Shown one piece after another: positions 52,018 to 62,277 of a stretch of 64,000 bases of DNA. Below the pieces are notes generated by a model. The model was given only the letters and a program-made list of their open reading frames with translations, ran no database searches and was not told the DNA's origin. The number at the start of each line of letters is the position of its first letter. Within the stretch, counting starts at the first letter, position 1. Position numbers and translations under genes: made by a program. The stretch comes from Gloeobacter kilaueensis JS1. Lineage in GTDB: Bacteria > Cyanobacteriota > Cyanobacteriia > Gloeobacterales > Gloeobacteraceae. Location: positions 3,038,001 through 3,102,000 of the forward strand of contig NC_022600.1 in NCBI RefSeq assembly GCF_000484535.1. The letters run 5' to 3'.

Positions 52018-53049
52018 TCAGTCTAGATCCGAAGCGTAACCGCTCTGCTCCTCGCCATCGGGCTGGTAATCGTACTCACCTGCGTCATCTGTTGAATCGG
52101 GAGTGTCACTCTGCTGGCTGTAGTCGTCCTGGCTCTGGTCGCTTCCTTGATCCTGGGCATAGTCCTGCGAATCATAGCTGTCAAAATTCTGCCCTTGATC
52201 GTAGTCTTGCGAATCGTAGCTTCCTTGGTCCTGGTTGTCGTCCTGGGGCTCGTAATCTTCTGAGGGCGATTGCTGGGAATCGTAGTTTGCCTGGCTCTGG
52301 TCGTAGTCCTGCAAGTCGGAATCTCCAAAACCTTGCCCCTGGCTATCGTCCTGCAAGTCGAAGTTGCCTTGAGCTTGAGCGTAAGTCTGGGGGTCATAAC
52401 CTCCCGGATCCTGTGAATCGTAACTTTCTAGATCCTGTAGACCTTCCTGGGCATCGTAACTGCCGAAATCCTGTCCTTGAGGGTAATTCTGGGCATCGTA
52501 ACTGCCGAAGTCCTGTTGCTGGCCATCGTAACTGTCGGGATCTTGACCCTGGCCGTAGATGGCGGCATCGCCGTAGGCACCCTCGTCGCTCGGATTGAAG
52601 CTGACCGTCTGGCCGAAGGCGGCAGTGCTGTCGAGCGCAGCGTAGGTCTGGTCGGGCATCGGGTAGTCGCCGCGCAGGTCCGGTTGCGGGGTGTTGACGA
52701 TGTCTTTTAGCTCCTGGGTCGCCTTCGCATTTTCTTTTGCGTCCTCTTGCTGTTGCCGTTGCGCTTCGAGGGCGGCAGCGTAGTCTTTTTCGGTCTGGGC
52801 GCGTTCGGCATCGGTAGGGCTGCGATAGGCCGGGGGCGGTTTGTCGATCGGAATGGTGACGGTACCGCTGGCTCCCTGGGTCGGATCGTTTGATTCGACG
52901 CCTACTTTCGTTCCGTCTTTGAACTGCACGCCACCCTGCAGTTTGTTCGCATCGTCTTGATCTTGAGCGTCAGTAACCGGATTGGGCACCTGTGGTCCAG
53001 GACGCACATCGCCTGGGGTACTGCCGCCGTAGGGCTCTGGAGATGGCAT
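52018..53049 (-). CDS. Low-complexity Gln/Asp/Tyr/Ser-rich repeat protein
   Basis: 343 aa. ATG 53049 is preceded by GAGGAAA at 6 bases. After an ordered-looking start (MPSPEPYGGSTPGDVRPGP, then VQFKDGTKVGVESNDPTQGA) and a charged helical segment (~85-125), residues ~150-343 are a repetitive tail. Its units are of the type SYDAQ, DYDQGQ and NYDSQQ, with about twenty copies. It is highly acidic and Tyr/Gln-rich, so probably disordered and prone to phase separation or fibre formation. No signal peptide. Not recognised as a known family. Confidence 0.8.
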   Translation of the reverse strand: MPSPEPYGGSTPGDVRPGPQVPNPVTDAQDQDDANKLQGGVQFKDGTKVGVESNDPTQGASGTVTIPIDKPPPAYRSPTDAERAQTEKDYAAALEAQRQQQEDAKENAKATQELKDIVNTPQPDLRGDYPMPDQTYAALDSTAAFGQTVSFNPSDEGAYGDAAIYGQGQDPDSYDGQQQDFGSYDAQNYPQGQDFGSYDAQEGLQDLESYDSQDPGGYDPQTYAQAQGNFDLQDDSQGQGFGDSDLQDYDQSQANYDSQQSPSEDYEPQDDNQDQGSYDSQDYDQGQNFDSYDSQDYAQDQGSDQSQDDYSQQSDTPDSTDDAGEYDYQPDGEEQSGYASDLD

Positions 53050-53289
53050 AAAAGATTTCCTCGCAAGAAGCGTTGAGATAGTCCACCCTGGCTGACTGTA
53101 GAGGGCGTATCTGGCTACCCCTGCGCTCAAAGCCGTGGCGGTAATCGATGAATAGGCTGCGCGCCTGAGATTATGCTCGGTTCAAAATCATAGAGTTTTA
53201 TAGATTTCAACTCTGGAATTTCTCGACTTCACTTGATGCTGACTCGGACTTACCTTGAGGCCAGTGTGGTGTAGAGAAAGGCAACCCCA

Positions 53290-54064: not shown

Positions 54065-54850
54065 ATGAAGGAGCCGGAGCGCTGGTATTGGGTGCTGGGA
54101 CTGGAGCCTGGAGCCTCACAGGAGGAGGTGACGCAGGCTTACAAGGATCTGGCCTTTGTCTGGCATCCCGACCGGATGCCGGTCGAAAATACCCGGCTGC
54201 AACAAAAAGCGGTCGAAAAGCTCAAAGAGATCAACCAGGCTTACGAGCAGTTGCGCGCCATCCAGGCCAACCCACCCCCGCCTGCGCCTGCCCCCCCGGA
54301 CAAAGGCTCTAGCTTCCGTCCCGTCTATCGGCCACCGGCCAGCACCCGGCCCGCCCGCTCAGCGGCGGCCCAGAGCCATACCAGCCACAGCCAGGGCCAT
54401 ACGCGCTCCCACACGAGCCACCAGCGCGAGCGCGCCGCCCCCCGCAAAGCTGAGCCTCCACCCCCGCCCCCGCCGCGCTACCGCTCTCCGGACATGAGCG
54501 GCGCGGACCTGCGCGGAGCCAACTTCAAAGAACGAGACCTCGAAGGCCGCAACTTGAGCAACGCCAACTTGAGCGGCGCGGACTTGAGCGACGCTTTTTT
54601 GCACAAGGCCAGCTTCAACGGCGCGGACCTGTCGCGGGCCAATCTTTTTCGAGCCAACCTCCTGCAGGCCGACCTGCGCAACGCGGACCTGCAGGAAGCG
54701 AATTTGCTCGGCGCAGACCTCAGCGGTGCCAATTTGAGCGGTGCCAACCTGCGCGGCGCGCAGATGACGATCGCCGATCGGTTGATGGTCAAGCTCACCG
54801 GCTCGATTCTCACCGGGGCGACGATGCCCGACGGCAAGATCCACCCGTAG
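54065..54850 (+). CDS. J-domain protein with pentapeptide repeats
   Basis: 261 aa. The J domain at ~5-68 has WHPDR (HPD) and a typical helix II/III (VEKLKEINQAYEQLRA); it would stimulate a DnaK ATPase. A Pro/Ala/Ser/His-rich linker (~70-138) leads to about 22 pentapeptide repeats of A(D/N)LxX type (~140-245), a right-handed beta helix. The HPD motif shows that J function is possible. The combination suggests a targeting domain for a DnaK in the cyanobacterial cell. Confidence 0.92.
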   Translation: MKEPERWYWVLGLEPGASQEEVTQAYKDLAFVWHPDRMPVENTRLQQKAVEKLKEINQAYEQLRAIQANPPPPAPAPPDKGSSFRPVYRPPASTRPARSAAAQSHTSHSQGHTRSHTSHQRERAAPRKAEPPPPPPPRYRSPDMSGADLRGANFKERDLEGRNLSNANLSGADLSDAFLHKASFNGADLSRANLFRANLLQADLRNADLQEANLLGADLSGANLSGANLRGAQMTIADRLMVKLTGSILTGATMPDGKIHP

Positions 54851-54851
54851 A

Positions 54852-55553
54852 TCAGGAGGAGGCGAGCAGGGGCCGACTGGGAAGCGGAGTGTGGCGCGCC
54901 TCGATGGGCCGGCCTCCCGGCAGCGGCGTCTCCGGCAGGATGTTCAAGGTACCCTTGAAGACCGGACGGTTGCCCGGCAGGTGTGTATCCGGCAGTACCT
55001 CAAGACCCAGCTTTATGACGGGCCGATCGCCCACCATGTGATCGATCTTGAGCTTGGCCTTCTCGATGGGCCTGCCATTGGGCAGCGGCGTCTCGGGCAA
55101 GATCTTGAGCGTGCCCTTGAAGACCGGGCGGTTGGTGATGGGCGGCACGTCGGTAGCGACCTGGACCGGGTTGGGATAGATTGGCCGCTCAAAGCGCTCC
55201 GCCGGCTGCGGTGGCAGGGCGAGCTTGGCCCTTTCGATGGGCCTGCCGTTGGGCAGCGGCGTCTCCGGCAAGATCTTGAGCGTGCCCTTGAAGACCGGGC
55301 GGTTGTTCGGCAGGTGCGTATCCGGCAGTACCTCAAGACCCAGCTTTATGACGGGCCGATCGCCCACCATGTGGCCAATCTTGAGCTTGGCCGCTTCGAT
55401 GGGCCGTCCACCCGGCAGCGTCGTCTCCGGCAGAATGTGGAGTTTGGCAGGGTAGATGGGCCGGCCTCCCGGCAGGGGAGCAGGTTCGTAGACAGCGAGT
55501 GAAGCAGCTTCTGCTCCCCCCTCGCCCGGCTGCGCTCCAACAACGTCACTCAT
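54852..55553 (-). CDS. RP(I/V)-motif repeat protein, 233 aa
   Basis: ATG 55553 follows GGAGG at about 9 bases. The protein is built of about ten repeats of ~23 residues with the core LPGGRPI or LPNNRPVFKGTLKILPETP. Long blocks are repeated: VGDRPVIKLGLEVLPDTHLP occurs twice, and NRPVFKGTLKILPETPLP three times, nearly identical at DNA level. No hydrophobic segment. Proteins with GGNRP(I/V)-type repeats are widespread in cyanobacteria but uncharacterised. The final stop is one base after the convergent J-domain gene. Confidence 0.8.
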   Translation of the reverse strand: MSDVVGAQPGEGGAEAASLAVYEPAPLPGGRPIYPAKLHILPETTLPGGRPIEAAKLKIGHMVGDRPVIKLGLEVLPDTHLPNNRPVFKGTLKILPETPLPNGRPIERAKLALPPQPAERFERPIYPNPVQVATDVPPITNRPVFKGTLKILPETPLPNGRPIEKAKLKIDHMVGDRPVIKLGLEVLPDTHLPGNRPVFKGTLNILPETPLPGGRPIEARHTPLPSRPLLASS

Positions 55554-55679
55554 CGCCTCTACCTCCATCAAACGGCGTCGGTCAGAACCAAAATTCTTGC
55601 AACGAAGCGTGAAGCACTTCGTCAACTTCTGTTTGGATTATAGAAGCGAATTTTACGAAAAGCGCAATCAGCAACTATT

Positions 55680-58351: not shown

Positions 58352-60946
58352 TCAAGGCCACCATTCCGCCGCATCTAAAATCGCTTGGATAACTTCCTCG
58401 GCGGCCCGTACGTTTCCTAAGCGAAGAACGATAGGTACAGCCACAGTAAGATTACTGAGCAGGTGCCAGCGAGAAAGTTTTGAACAGTCAATAAGCCATT
58501 GCCTCCACAGTTGGTAAACTTTGCAGGGAGATACCTCAAGTTTCCCAAAACATCTTCCTGACGCCATCAGTACTTTAGCTCTATATTCTTCGTCACCAAT
58601 GCTTTGAGCAGCTTGCAGAACTGACTCGGGCAGATGAGGGGCTACTGCTGTTAGTATTTCTGCTTTATAATAATCGTTCCCAATGCTTTGAGTAGTTTGC
58701 AGAACTGGCTCAGGCAGGTGAGGAGCCACTGTTGTTAGTACTTTAGCTCTATATCTTTCGTCACCAATGCTTTGAGCAGATTGCAGAACTGACTTGGGCA
58801 GGTGAGGAGCTACTGCTTTCAGTACTTTAGCTCTATAGTAATCATTTCCAATGCTTTGAGTAGTTTGCAGAACCGACTCGGGTAGGTGAGGAGCCACTGC
58901 TGCTAGTACTTCAGCTTTATAATAATCGTTTCCAATGCTTTGAGCAGCTTGCAAAACTGGCTCAGGCAGGTGAGGAGCCGCTGCAGCTAGTACTTTAGCT
59001 CTATATTCTTCGTCACCAATGCTTTGAGCAGGTTGCAGAACTGGCTCAGGCAGGTAAGGAGCCACTGTTGTTAGTACTTTAGCTCTATATCTTTCGTCAC
59101 CAATGCTTTGAGCAGATTGCAGAACTGACTCGGGCAGGTGAGGAGCTACTGCTGTTAGTACTTCAGCCTTAGAGTATTCGTTTCCAATGCTTTGAGTAGT
59201 TTGCAGAACCGACTCGGGTAGGTAAGGAGCCACTGCTGCTAGTACTTTCACTCTATAGTAATCGTTTCCGATGCTTTGAGTAGTTTGCAGGACTGACTTG
59301 GGTAGGTAAGGAGCCACTGCTGCTAGCACTTTAGCTCTATATCTTTCGTCACCAATGCTTTGAGCAGCTTGGAGTACCTGCTGCAGTACTTGCTGTTTTT
59401 GCTTCTCGGGCAGATAAGGAGCTACTGCTGTTAGTACTTTGGCCTTGTAGCATTCGTCACCAATGCTTTGAGCAGCTTGCAGAACTGACTCGGGTAGATG
59501 GGGAGCGACTGCTTCTAGTACCTCGCTTTTGTGGCATTCGTCTCCGATGCTTTGAGCGGCTTGCAGAACTGGCTCGGGCAGGCGCGGGGCCACTACTGCT
59601 AGTACTTCAGCTTTATAATAATCGTTTCCAATGCTTTGAGCAGCTTGCAGGACTGACTCGGGCAGATAAGAAGTTACTGCTTTTAGTGCTTCAGCTTTAT
59701 AGTATTTGTTTCTAATGCTTTGAGCAGTTTGCAGAACTGACTTGGGCAGATGAGGGGCTACTGCTGTTAGTATTTCTGCTTTATATTCTTCGTCGCCAAT
59801 GCTTCGAGCAGCTTGCAGAACTGGCTCGGGCAGATGAGGAGCCACTGCTGCTAGTACTTCAGCTTTATAATAATCGTTTCCGATGCTTTGAGCAGCTTGC
59901 AGGACTGACTCGGGCAAGTGAGGAGCCACTGCTGTTAGTATTTCTGCTTTATATTCTTCGTCACCAATGCTTTGAGCAGCTTGGAGTACCTGCTGCAGTA
60001 CTTGCTGTTTTTGCTTCTCGGGTAGGTGAGGAACCGCTGCTCTCAGTACTTCAGCTTTATAGTAATCGTTTCCAATGCTTTGAGCAGCTTGCAGGACTGA
60101 CTCGGGTAGATGAGAAGTTACTGCTTTCAGTACTTTAGCTCTGTATCTTTTACTTCCAATGCTTTGAGCAGCTTGCAGGACTGACTCGGGCAAGTGAGGA
60201 GCCACTGCTGTTAGTATTTCTGCTTTATATCTTTCGTCACTAACGCTTTGAGCAGCTTGCAGAACTGGCTCGGGCAGGTAAGGAGCAACTGCTTTCAGTA
60301 CTTTAGCTCTGTATCTTTTACTTCCAATGCTTTGAGCAGCTTGCAGGACTGACTCGGGCAGATGAGGAGCCACTGCTGTTAGTATTTCTGCTTTATATTC
60401 TTCGTCACCAATGCTTTGAGCAGCTTGGAGTACCTGCTGCAGTACTTGCTGTTTTTGCTTCTCGGGCAGGTGAGGAACCGCTGCTCTCAGTACTTCAGCT
60501 TTATAGTAATCGTTTCCAATGCTTTGAGCAGCTTGCAGGACTGACTCGGGTAGATAAGGAGCCACTGCTGTTAGTATTTCTGCTTTATATCTTTCGTCAC
60601 CAACGCTTTGAGCAGTTTGCAAGACTGACTCGGGCAGGTAAGGAGCTACTGCTGTTAGTACCTCAGCTCTATAGTAATCGTTTCCAATGCTTTGAGCAAT
60701 CTGCAGAACTGGCTCGGGCAGATGAGGAGCTACTGCTGTTAGTATTTCTGCTTTATATTCTTCGTTCTCAATGCTTTGAGCAGCTTGCAGAACTGACTCG
60801 GGCAGGTAAGGAGCTACTGCTGTTAGTACCTCGGCTTTAGAGTATTCGTCACTAATGCTTTGAGCAGCTTGCAAGACTGGCTCGGGCAGATGGGGAGCTA
60901 CTGCTGCTAGTACCTCGGCTTTAGAGTATTCGTTTCTGATACTTTG
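58352..60946 (-). pseudogene. 28-residue tandem repeat protein, 5' end cut off by an IS
   Basis: About 865 residues of the original frame remain. 28 units of mostly 28 residues (84 bases) follow each other, with the consensus VLTAVAPHLPESVLQAAQSI then GNDYYKAE. Three units carry the 8-residue insertion EKQKQQVLQQ. The units look like two-helix repeats (HEAT/armadillo-like). The C-terminal cap has VAVPIVLRLGNVRAAEEV and ends EWWP. The first unit stops exactly at the left end of the IS (60947). A frame continues to GTG 61003 inside the IS, but it adds only unrelated residues. Comparable Ala-Pro-His-Leu repeats occur at C-ends of large cyanobacterial NTPase/protease proteins, which suggests that the N-terminal part was lost. 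Confidence 0.8.
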
Positions 60947-60994
60947 TGACGTGCAACCGCTAAAGTGAACCGCGTAGAATGTGAGTCTTCCAGC
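60947..60994 (+). repeat. Left terminal inverted repeat of the IS
   Basis: TGACGTGCAACCGC at its outer end, ending GAATGTGAGTCTTCCAGC. Compare 62158-62203 in reverse. Confidence 0.8.
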
Positions 60995-61017
60995 CGACAC
61001 CACTGACGAGGAAGACC

Positions 61018-61284
61018 ATGAAGAAAAGCCGTTTCACGACTGAACAGATCATTGCCATCCTGGGTGAGGGGCAGGCCGGTGCTAACGTGGCAGAGCTATG
61101 CCGCAGACACGGTATCAGCGAGCAGACCTACTATCGCTGGAAGGCCAAGTACGGTGGAATGGAAATCTCTGAAGCTCAGCGCCTGAAGGATCTCGAAGCA
61201 GAAAACCGCAAACTCAAGCAGATCGTCGCCGACCAAGCTCTCGACCTTCATGCCCTCAAGGCGGTGCTGTCAAAAAAATTCTAA
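61018..61284 (+). CDS. IS3-family transposase OrfA (helix-turn-helix)
   Basis: 88 aa. HTH_Tnp_1 domain: KKSRFTTEQIIAILGEGQAG, then VAELCRRHGISEQTYYRWKAKYGG. A leucine-zipper helix follows (RLKDLEAENRKLKQIVADQAL). The last codons TCA-AAA-AAA contain the slippery A-AAA-AAA heptamer at 61272-61278, so that the ribosome can slip back one base into orfB and make the full transposase. Confidence 0.95.
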   Translation: MKKSRFTTEQIIAILGEGQAGANVAELCRRHGISEQTYYRWKAKYGGMEISEAQRLKDLEAENRKLKQIVADQALDLHALKAVLSKKF

Positions 61285-62147
61285 CCCCAGCAGCCAAACG
61301 CCAGGCTGCCGCCTACCTGCAAGCCGACCTGCAGGTTTCCCAGAGGCGAGCCTGTCGGTTGCTGGGGTTGCACCGCTCCACCGCCCGGTTAGTCGGTCAT
61401 CGCACTGAAGATCCCGTGTTGCTAGCACGGCTGAAGCAGTTGGCTGCCGAACGTCCGCGTTATGGCTATCGACGGCTGACACTGCTGCTGAGAAGGGAAG
61501 GCAGGCTGGTCAACGCCAAGAAAATCTACCGACTGTGCACCAAGGAGGGATTGCTGGTGCGCCCAAAAAAGCGTAAACCCCGCTTCCGACCGTCTGGGAG
61601 GCCGGAAGCACCGGCTTTAGAACGCCCTAACCAGCTATGGAGCCTGGACTTTGTCGAGGATGCCCTGGCCGACGGACGCAAACTGCGGACCTTGACGATC
61701 ATCGATGTCTACAGCCGGGAGTGCCCACAAATTGAAGTCGATACCTCCCTGCCCTCAGCGCGGGTGGTGCGGGTGCTGGAAACCCTGGCGGCCCAGCGGC
61801 AGTTGCCGGAACGATTGCTGGTTGATAATGGGCCGGAGTTCGTCTGTCGAGCACTGGCGGAGTGGGCAACGCGGCGTGGGGTGCTCATCGCCTTCACTCG
61901 TCCGGGCAAGCCAACGGACAAGCCGCACATCGAGAGCTTTAATGGGAAATTTCGGGATGAATGTCTTAATGCCCACTACTTCTTGAGCGTGCCGGATGCC
62001 AGACGAATCGTCGAGGCTTGGCGGCTGGATTACAATCACTACCGTCCGCACAGTGCCCTGGCAGGAGCAACGCCGATGGAGTTTTTGCAACAGGTGAATG
62101 CCATCGCGGCTCCGCTGTCGCCGCAACGGCATCCACCTGTACGATAA
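61278..62147 (+). CDS. IS3-family transposase OrfB (DDE integrase core)
   Basis: About 289 codons in the -1 frame of orfA, entered by frameshifting at 61272-61278 (ILTPAAKRQAAAYLQADLQ). The HTH_21-like part has RPRYGYRRLTLLLRREG. The rve core has LWSLDFVEDAL (first Asp), LLVDNGPEFVC (second Asp) and KPHIESFNGKFRDECLN (Glu). The frame is intact, with no internal stop, so the element could still be active. Confidence 0.94.
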   Translation: MLTPAAKRQAAAYLQADLQVSQRRACRLLGLHRSTARLVGHRTEDPVLLARLKQLAAERPRYGYRRLTLLLRREGRLVNAKKIYRLCTKEGLLVRPKKRKPRFRPSGRPEAPALERPNQLWSLDFVEDALADGRKLRTLTIIDVYSRECPQIEVDTSLPSARVVRVLETLAAQRQLPERLLVDNGPEFVCRALAEWATRRGVLIAFTRPGKPTDKPHIESFNGKFRDECLNAHYFLSVPDARRIVEAWRLDYNHYRPHSALAGATPMEFLQQVNAIAAPLSPQRHPPVR

Positions 62148-62157
62148 GGAAAACCAA

Positions 62158-62203
62158 GCTGGAAACTCACATTCTCAGCGGATCATTATTCGGGGCCAAG
62201 TCA
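62158..62203 (-). repeat. Right terminal inverted repeat of the IS
   Basis: Read inward from 62203: TGACTTGGCCCCGAATAATG, then GAGAATGTGAGTTTCCAGC. Matches the left end with one gap and several mismatches. Confidence 0.8.
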
Positions 62204-62277
62204 AACTGAAAGCCCTACCCGAAAGTTGGCGTGAATATTTCCAGGAACAGATCCGTCGCCAGCTCCCAGCCGATTAA
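62204..62277 (+). pseudogene. 3' remnant of an unidentified gene next to the IS
   Basis: From the IS right end an open frame continues to TAA 62277. It ends LKALPESWREYFQEQIRRQL then PAD, which looks like a natural soluble C-terminus. The frame runs back into the IS, so its own start is lost. It is not part of the repeat protein, which runs the opposite way. Evidence is composition only. Confidence 0.35.

Follow-up and report, generated by a model that had tools for sequence, protein, structure and literature searches.

An IS3-family insertion sequence interrupts a probable NLR-like STAND receptor gene in Gloeobacter kilaueensis JS1

In the EAD-coupled NTP-dependent conflict systems (Kaur et al. 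2020, PMC7159879), the core NTPase component and an effector encoded next to it each carry a copy of a small adaptor. Such systems are described as preponderant among multicellular prokaryotes and include alpha/beta-hydrolase and STAND components. In the fungal HNWD NLRs (PMC4986451, PMC12222747) the repeats are homogenised within each gene and vary at few positions. Here I analysed a 28-residue repeat array in 64,000 nucleotides of G. kilaueensis JS1 (contig NC_022600.1, positions 3,038,001 to 3,102,000; hereafter the window) and found likenesses to both. As in the systems of Kaur et al. 2020 (PMC7159879), the JS1 locus has an adaptor on an NTPase and on a neighbouring gene as well as alpha/beta-hydrolase and STAND components, but the adaptor has no Pfam EAD1 score and no MoxR-vWA or GTPase core was seen at the locus. 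As in HNWD proteins, its repeats are homogenised within the gene with variation at few positions, but HNWD repeats are WD40 propellers whereas those of JS1 are predicted to form an alpha-alpha solenoid, and JS1 offers no evidence of allorecognition. The class of system is already known; the JS1 adaptor and repeat matched no Pfam model here. Probably, the array is the sensor of a ~1530-residue NLR-like STAND protein that would recruit a hydrolase effector through a shared adaptor, its gene split by an insertion sequence (IS), inverted and broken in JS1 (Table 1).

Table 1. Features of the interrupted genes and the insertion sequence. Plain coordinates are window positions; those prefixed L021, L022 or G000:C1 lie elsewhere in the JS1 genome.
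Feature	Position	Strand	Remark
C-terminal half of STAND (NLR-like) protein: repeat sensor and C-terminal cap (predicted)	58352..60946	-	codon phase carries on from N-half at G000:C1 ~3798983-3801000 (+)
27 complete 28-residue alpha-alpha repeat units (predicted fold), 3 with 8-aa insertion	58604..60943	-	
Terminal half unit and C-terminal helical cap	58352..58603	-	homologous to caps ending ...RWW of cyanobacterial NB-ARC relatives
TTTG, one copy of the STAND gene's 4-bp target duplication	60943..60946		twin flanks IS copy at G000:C1:3800997
IS3-family insertion sequence, 1257 bp, five identical genome copies	60947..62203	+	starts TGACGTG, ends CCAAGTCA
IS3 transposase first ORF (OrfA-like, 88 aa)	61018..61284	+	
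IS3 transposase catalytic ORF (OrfB-like)	61359..62147	+	
AACT, one copy of the MOSC gene's 4-bp target duplication	62204..62207		twin flanks other IS copy
C-terminal end of MOSC/YiiM-like gene (...LKALPESWREYFQEQIRRQLPAD*)	62204..62277	+	N-terminal part is L022:1233-1838(-)
N-half: ~70-aa N-terminal adaptor, STAND-type NTPase, helical pre-repeat stretch	L021:10984-13026	+	
Alpha/beta-hydrolase with C-terminal adaptor, AHSLGG nucleophile motif	L021:6350-7549	+	~3.4 kb upstream of N-half, same strand

The initial annotation described 28 repeats of 28 residues. The minus-strand translation of 58352-60946 (QSIRNEYSKAEVLAAVAPHLPEPVLQAAQ..., 864 residues) does contain 28 unit starts at an 84-bp period, but these amount to 27 complete units and a terminal half unit leading into the cap, and three units (6, 11 and 18) are lengthened by an 8-residue insertion (KQKQQVLQ), so that the array departs from a strict 28 x 28. 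Array and cap are intact, as had been claimed: the cap is homologous to those of relatives and its stop codon lies at 58352. At the other end the repeat sequence stops at 60946, exactly at the IS, and the program-made open reading frame extends to a GTG at 61003 inside it. Units share a mean pairwise identity of 66% (amino acids) and 76% (nucleotides), certain pairs being identical, and the G+C content of the array is 46-48% vs 60% for the genome. Tandem Repeats Finder scores it at up to 1920, far above chance, with periods of 84, 168, 252 and 444 bp; multi-unit blocks thus appear to have been duplicated, besides single units. A single-sequence AlphaFold2 model predicts regular helix pairs (approximately residues 5-15 and 20-27 of each unit) with a mean pLDDT of 86.8, a pTM of only 0.52 and a low-confidence cap. 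In Foldseek the nearest solved folds are HEAT/ARM-type superhelices, at TM-scores so low that only the class of fold is supported. The solenoid expected from structure prediction was therefore obtained, as a predicted alpha-alpha solenoid.

Pfam matches of the array (DUF5071, DUF790, DUF302, Tctex-1, Nup49_C and CPL) reach their thresholds only when scores are summed over all repeats of the protein; no individual stretch does so, and they were rejected as repeat artefacts, as were the NCBIfam matches of the array; a RhoGAP match on the Tolypothrix homologue lies inside the repeat array and was judged spurious. Such over-threshold yet spurious whole-protein matches of repeat arrays (DUF5071, DUF790, RhoGAP) are a source of misannotation. 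The window also encodes a 257-aa ORF of LPGGRPIEAAKLKI-type repeats (54852-55625, minus strand), a 370-aa ORF whose C-terminal part is of low complexity and rich in YDSQ/Q/D repeats (52018-53130, minus strand) and, by inspection, a J-domain-like N-terminus fused to pentapeptide repeats (54065-54850, plus strand).

The gene had been called beheaded, which raises the question: where is its 5' end? The boundaries of the IS were set by the five identical copies, which share query positions 11-1267 (window 60947-62203), and it belongs to the IS3 family by its transpos_IS3 match (217 bits, over the cut-off), inverted ends and 4-bp duplications. Three copies are each flanked by their own perfect duplication (ATTG, GTCG and CTCA). 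The window copy has TTTG on its left and AACT on its right. At the copy G000:C1:3800997-3802253, read with the IS in the same orientation, these flanks are exchanged, AACT lying left and TTTG right; I estimate the chance of both swapped pairs matching at ~1.5e-5 (1/256 squared, for random four-base strings). When the short flanks are joined across the empty sites, the repeat gene becomes one open frame (...SVSKHETYLVTTAALQAAQ/SIRNEYSKAEV...), and so does a MOSC/YiiM gene (...NPELLHRAAQ/LKALPESWREYFQEQIRRQLPAD*). A deletion beside the IS, which non-matching flanks might indicate, is ruled out, since the missing flanks are found at another IS copy. The IS thus does cut the gene, as first claimed, but the N-terminus is displaced by ~700 kb in the assembled genome, not lost.

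The swapped duplications and in-phase junctions point to two insertions followed by recombination of inverted copies, inverting ~700 kb. An IS3-family element would have entered the first repeat of the STAND gene (4-bp target CAAA on the coding strand) and a second copy the MOSC gene; recombination between the two inverted copies would then have parted the halves of both. The MOSC/YiiM-like gene, cut by the partner IS copy, has the same inversion breakpoint as the repeat gene. In the N-terminal half of this MOSC gene the Pfam match to the YiiM 3-alpha domain spans positions 1-27 of 44 only, consistent with the remainder sitting in the window.

The separation might instead be an assembly error, with one IS in each gene and the assembler crossing between identical copies. 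All five copies are identical, and swapped duplications are exactly what a misjoin at repeats of this kind leaves behind; the JS1 culture was not axenic (PMC3806779); and GC skew and coding-strand bias along the genome (20 stretches) are too weak to bear on an inversion. However, in the assembly of the 4,724,791-bp genome, 9-kb mate pairs, which easily span a 1.26-kb repeat, linked all contigs into one scaffold and assemblers were cross-checked (PMC3806779), so I consider a misjoin unlikely. Inversion or misjoin, the STAND gene is interrupted by the IS.

The displaced half bears out the suggestion in the initial annotation that the missing N-terminus was an effector/STAND module as far as the STAND part goes; the putative effector is a separate hydrolase gene, not part of the same polypeptide. 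Walker A (APAGRGKS, residue 168) and Walker B (LLLVLDGLD, residue 254) are both intact, and the superstructure-forming C-terminal repeats of a STAND protein are present as the array, which reads on in phase from the N-half when the empty site is restored and for which a solenoid is predicted. The N-half matches the PADLOC model STAND_TPR (E=1.9e-27), its Pfam NTPase matches stay below curated cut-offs (NPHP3_N at 23.8 vs 24.8, and AAA_16), and it has no NB-ARC Pfam match at E<=0.01. From sequence, the intact protein reads as an adaptor (~70 aa), a STAND NTPase, a helical pre-repeat domain, ~28 alpha-alpha repeats and a C-terminal cap.

By BLASTP, the N-half aligns with a STAND protein of a congener over residues 86-543 only (58% identity) and with an ATPase from a Rhizobium plasmid over 117-630 (31%). 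Four NB-ARC proteins that bear the same type of repeat align solely within ~555-649, the pre-repeat domain (29-34%). The NTPase thus falls in a different STAND lineage from the NB-ARC of the proteins related through the repeats, with pre-repeat domain, repeats and cap in common. A clean chimera, in which the array moved onto a foreign NTPase, had to be softened, since the Rhizobium homologue aligns through residue 630, into the pre-repeat domain; that homologue seems to carry degenerate helical repeats of its own. The STAND protein of the congener, 58% identical in its NTPase, ends in a different C-terminus; sister species thus differ in their sensor module. In genome G003, two copies of another transposase gene flank the related STAND gene (L038:5433-10646), and a fragment of DUF4062 is found upstream: mobile elements have struck this NTPase lineage in a second species as well.

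Matches to the repeat family were found in 17 of 386 sampled genomes of the cyanobacterial phylum (JS1 included), and also on cyanobacterial plasmids, with 5-32 units per protein by hidden-Markov extraction. Such repeats were said to cap large NTPase or protease proteins, and the relatives are indeed large NB-ARC proteins, some with trypsin-like (L079 by Pfam; L078 and L081 by near-identical N-termini) or EAD4 (L002, by Pfam) domains at the N-terminus and others with short N-termini (L003, L077 and L082, by inspection), whereas JS1 has the adaptor in this position. The proteins of Tolypothrix (WP_263420187.1), Calothrix (WP_035160027.1) and Leptolyngbya (WP_172410518.1) share with JS1 the repeat family (~31-34% identity over the array), the pre-repeat helical domain and the cap, but their NTPase is an NB-ARC/AP-ATPase that BLASTP does not align with that of JS1. 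Among the genomes sampled there was no intact copy with exactly the JS1 domain combination, and no orthologue was seen to start within the repeats, the outcome that would have spoken against a missing N-terminal domain. A scan of genome contigs by peptide patterns, probably too specific, returned no relative.

Repeat turnover, proposed from the high identity between units, is measurable as internal homogenisation. The nearest neighbour of each of the 27 JS1 units is another unit of the same protein, which supports concerted evolution of the array. Nearest neighbours are likewise all within the protein in Tolypothrix and in the G405 protein; in other repeat proteins, some of which have close relatives in the set, the within-protein fraction is 0.25-0.94. 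Codon comparison of the units gives an overall dN/dS of ~0.42, with pN > pS at unit positions 5, 6, 11, 13 and 26 among others, which, given the few synonymous sites per column, hints at positive selection but does not test for it.

The adaptor of the hydrolase gene is 49% identical over 63 aa to that of the N-half (E=1e-16), and the hydrolase matches the PADLOC model DUF626_VIII (E=1.4e-31). In the functional sense this is an EAD-type adaptor, one small domain being present on a core component and on a neighbouring, putative effector; Pfam EAD1 (PF19955) has no match with the 88-aa N-terminus at E<=1, nor at adaptor loci in the JS1 genome. An alignment of eight members was built, and the adaptor is likewise carried by hydrolase and STAND genes in further Gloeobacterales genomes. 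The hydrolase-adaptor gene itself is also found in genomes G001, G002 and G005. In the Gloeobacter modules L039 (G001) and L040 (G002, at a contig end) it is accompanied, as in JS1, by a TPR gene and by one for a small adaptor, and in L039 it stands beside an adaptor-NB-ARC-TPR gene, so that the STAND protein there carries the adaptor too. These modules differ from JS1 in having a TPR sensor and an NB-ARC NTPase, and the L039 genes are not IS-split. A Gloeothece plasmid protein joins the hydrolase domain (34% identity) directly to NB-ARC-WD40, and a Nostoc protein joins it (46% identity) to an AAA-like domain. Together with the shared adaptor, these direct fusions are the main evidence for the best reading of the hydrolase, as an effector encoded on a separate gene and linked to the STAND protein by the adaptor. 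In G002 a TIR-like domain (by inspection) lies between hydrolase and adaptor (L040:4494-6407). A glycine-rich, beta-type GGNVVGGVIVTGDGNVI-like motif recurs in the JS1 hydrolase (residues ~288-309), the N-half (residues ~84-105), the L038 STAND protein and the L040 TIR-hydrolase; common to hydrolases and STAND proteins, it is a candidate amyloid-type signalling motif.

Could the protein be a transcription or signalling regulator of the MalT kind and not an immune receptor? STAND proteins include metabolic regulators, and a regulator that has nothing to do with phage could have this architecture. Against this, the Pfam scan found no DNA-binding domain in the N-half, the adaptor is common to the adjacent hydrolase, and relatives fuse that hydrolase to NB-ARC-WD40. 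Relatives also have trypsin-like or EAD4 N-termini, which are typical of conflict systems (PMC7159879). A MalT-like regulator therefore seems quite unlikely. If the module is instead immune, as analogy with STAND receptors suggests, a trigger such as a phage protein would bind to the repeat solenoid, upon which the NTPase would take ATP and oligomerise. The clustered N-terminal adaptors could then recruit the neighbouring alpha/beta-hydrolase via its matching C-terminal adaptor, and a membrane- or metabolite-damaging response would follow, with defence or cell death as the outcome.

In JS1 the module is probably dead. Besides the IS insertion, the TPR gene (L021:8052-9342) and the small adaptor gene (L021:7602-8023, minus strand) are each split between two frames by comparison with G001 and G002, and a further transposase separates the hydrolase gene from the N-half; sequencing errors could in principle account for the frameshifts. 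That the truncated ORF yields a working repeat protein in its own right, a decoy or inhibitor expressed for instance from the IS (GTG 61003), is very unlikely: the array has no stops and its frame is open across the junction into the IS, but a consensus scan found no sigma-70-like or outward promoter in the IS, other module genes are frameshifted, and the identical IS copies indicate a recent insertion, so that an intact frame needs no selection. A reversible inversion acting as an on/off switch of an immune gene can practically be dismissed despite the halves lying at two inverted IS copies, because re-inversion would rejoin them with the IS still in frame, so that precise excision would also be needed and inversion alone cannot restore the gene.

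The locus is a clean example of two genes split in reciprocal fashion by a pair of IS copies, a pitfall for annotation pipelines, which would list unrelated truncated genes. More tentatively, the module may keep one hydrolase effector and one undescribed adaptor while swapping sensor arrays and NTPases between close species, its repeats diversifying, HNWD-like, by concerted evolution with a few fast positions. The adaptor and repeat families of the locus set (L021, L039, L040 and L041) can help to find further systems of this kind. An orphan repeat ORF here becomes half of a recognisable, putative immune-receptor module in a unicellular organism from among the earliest-branching cyanobacterial lineages.
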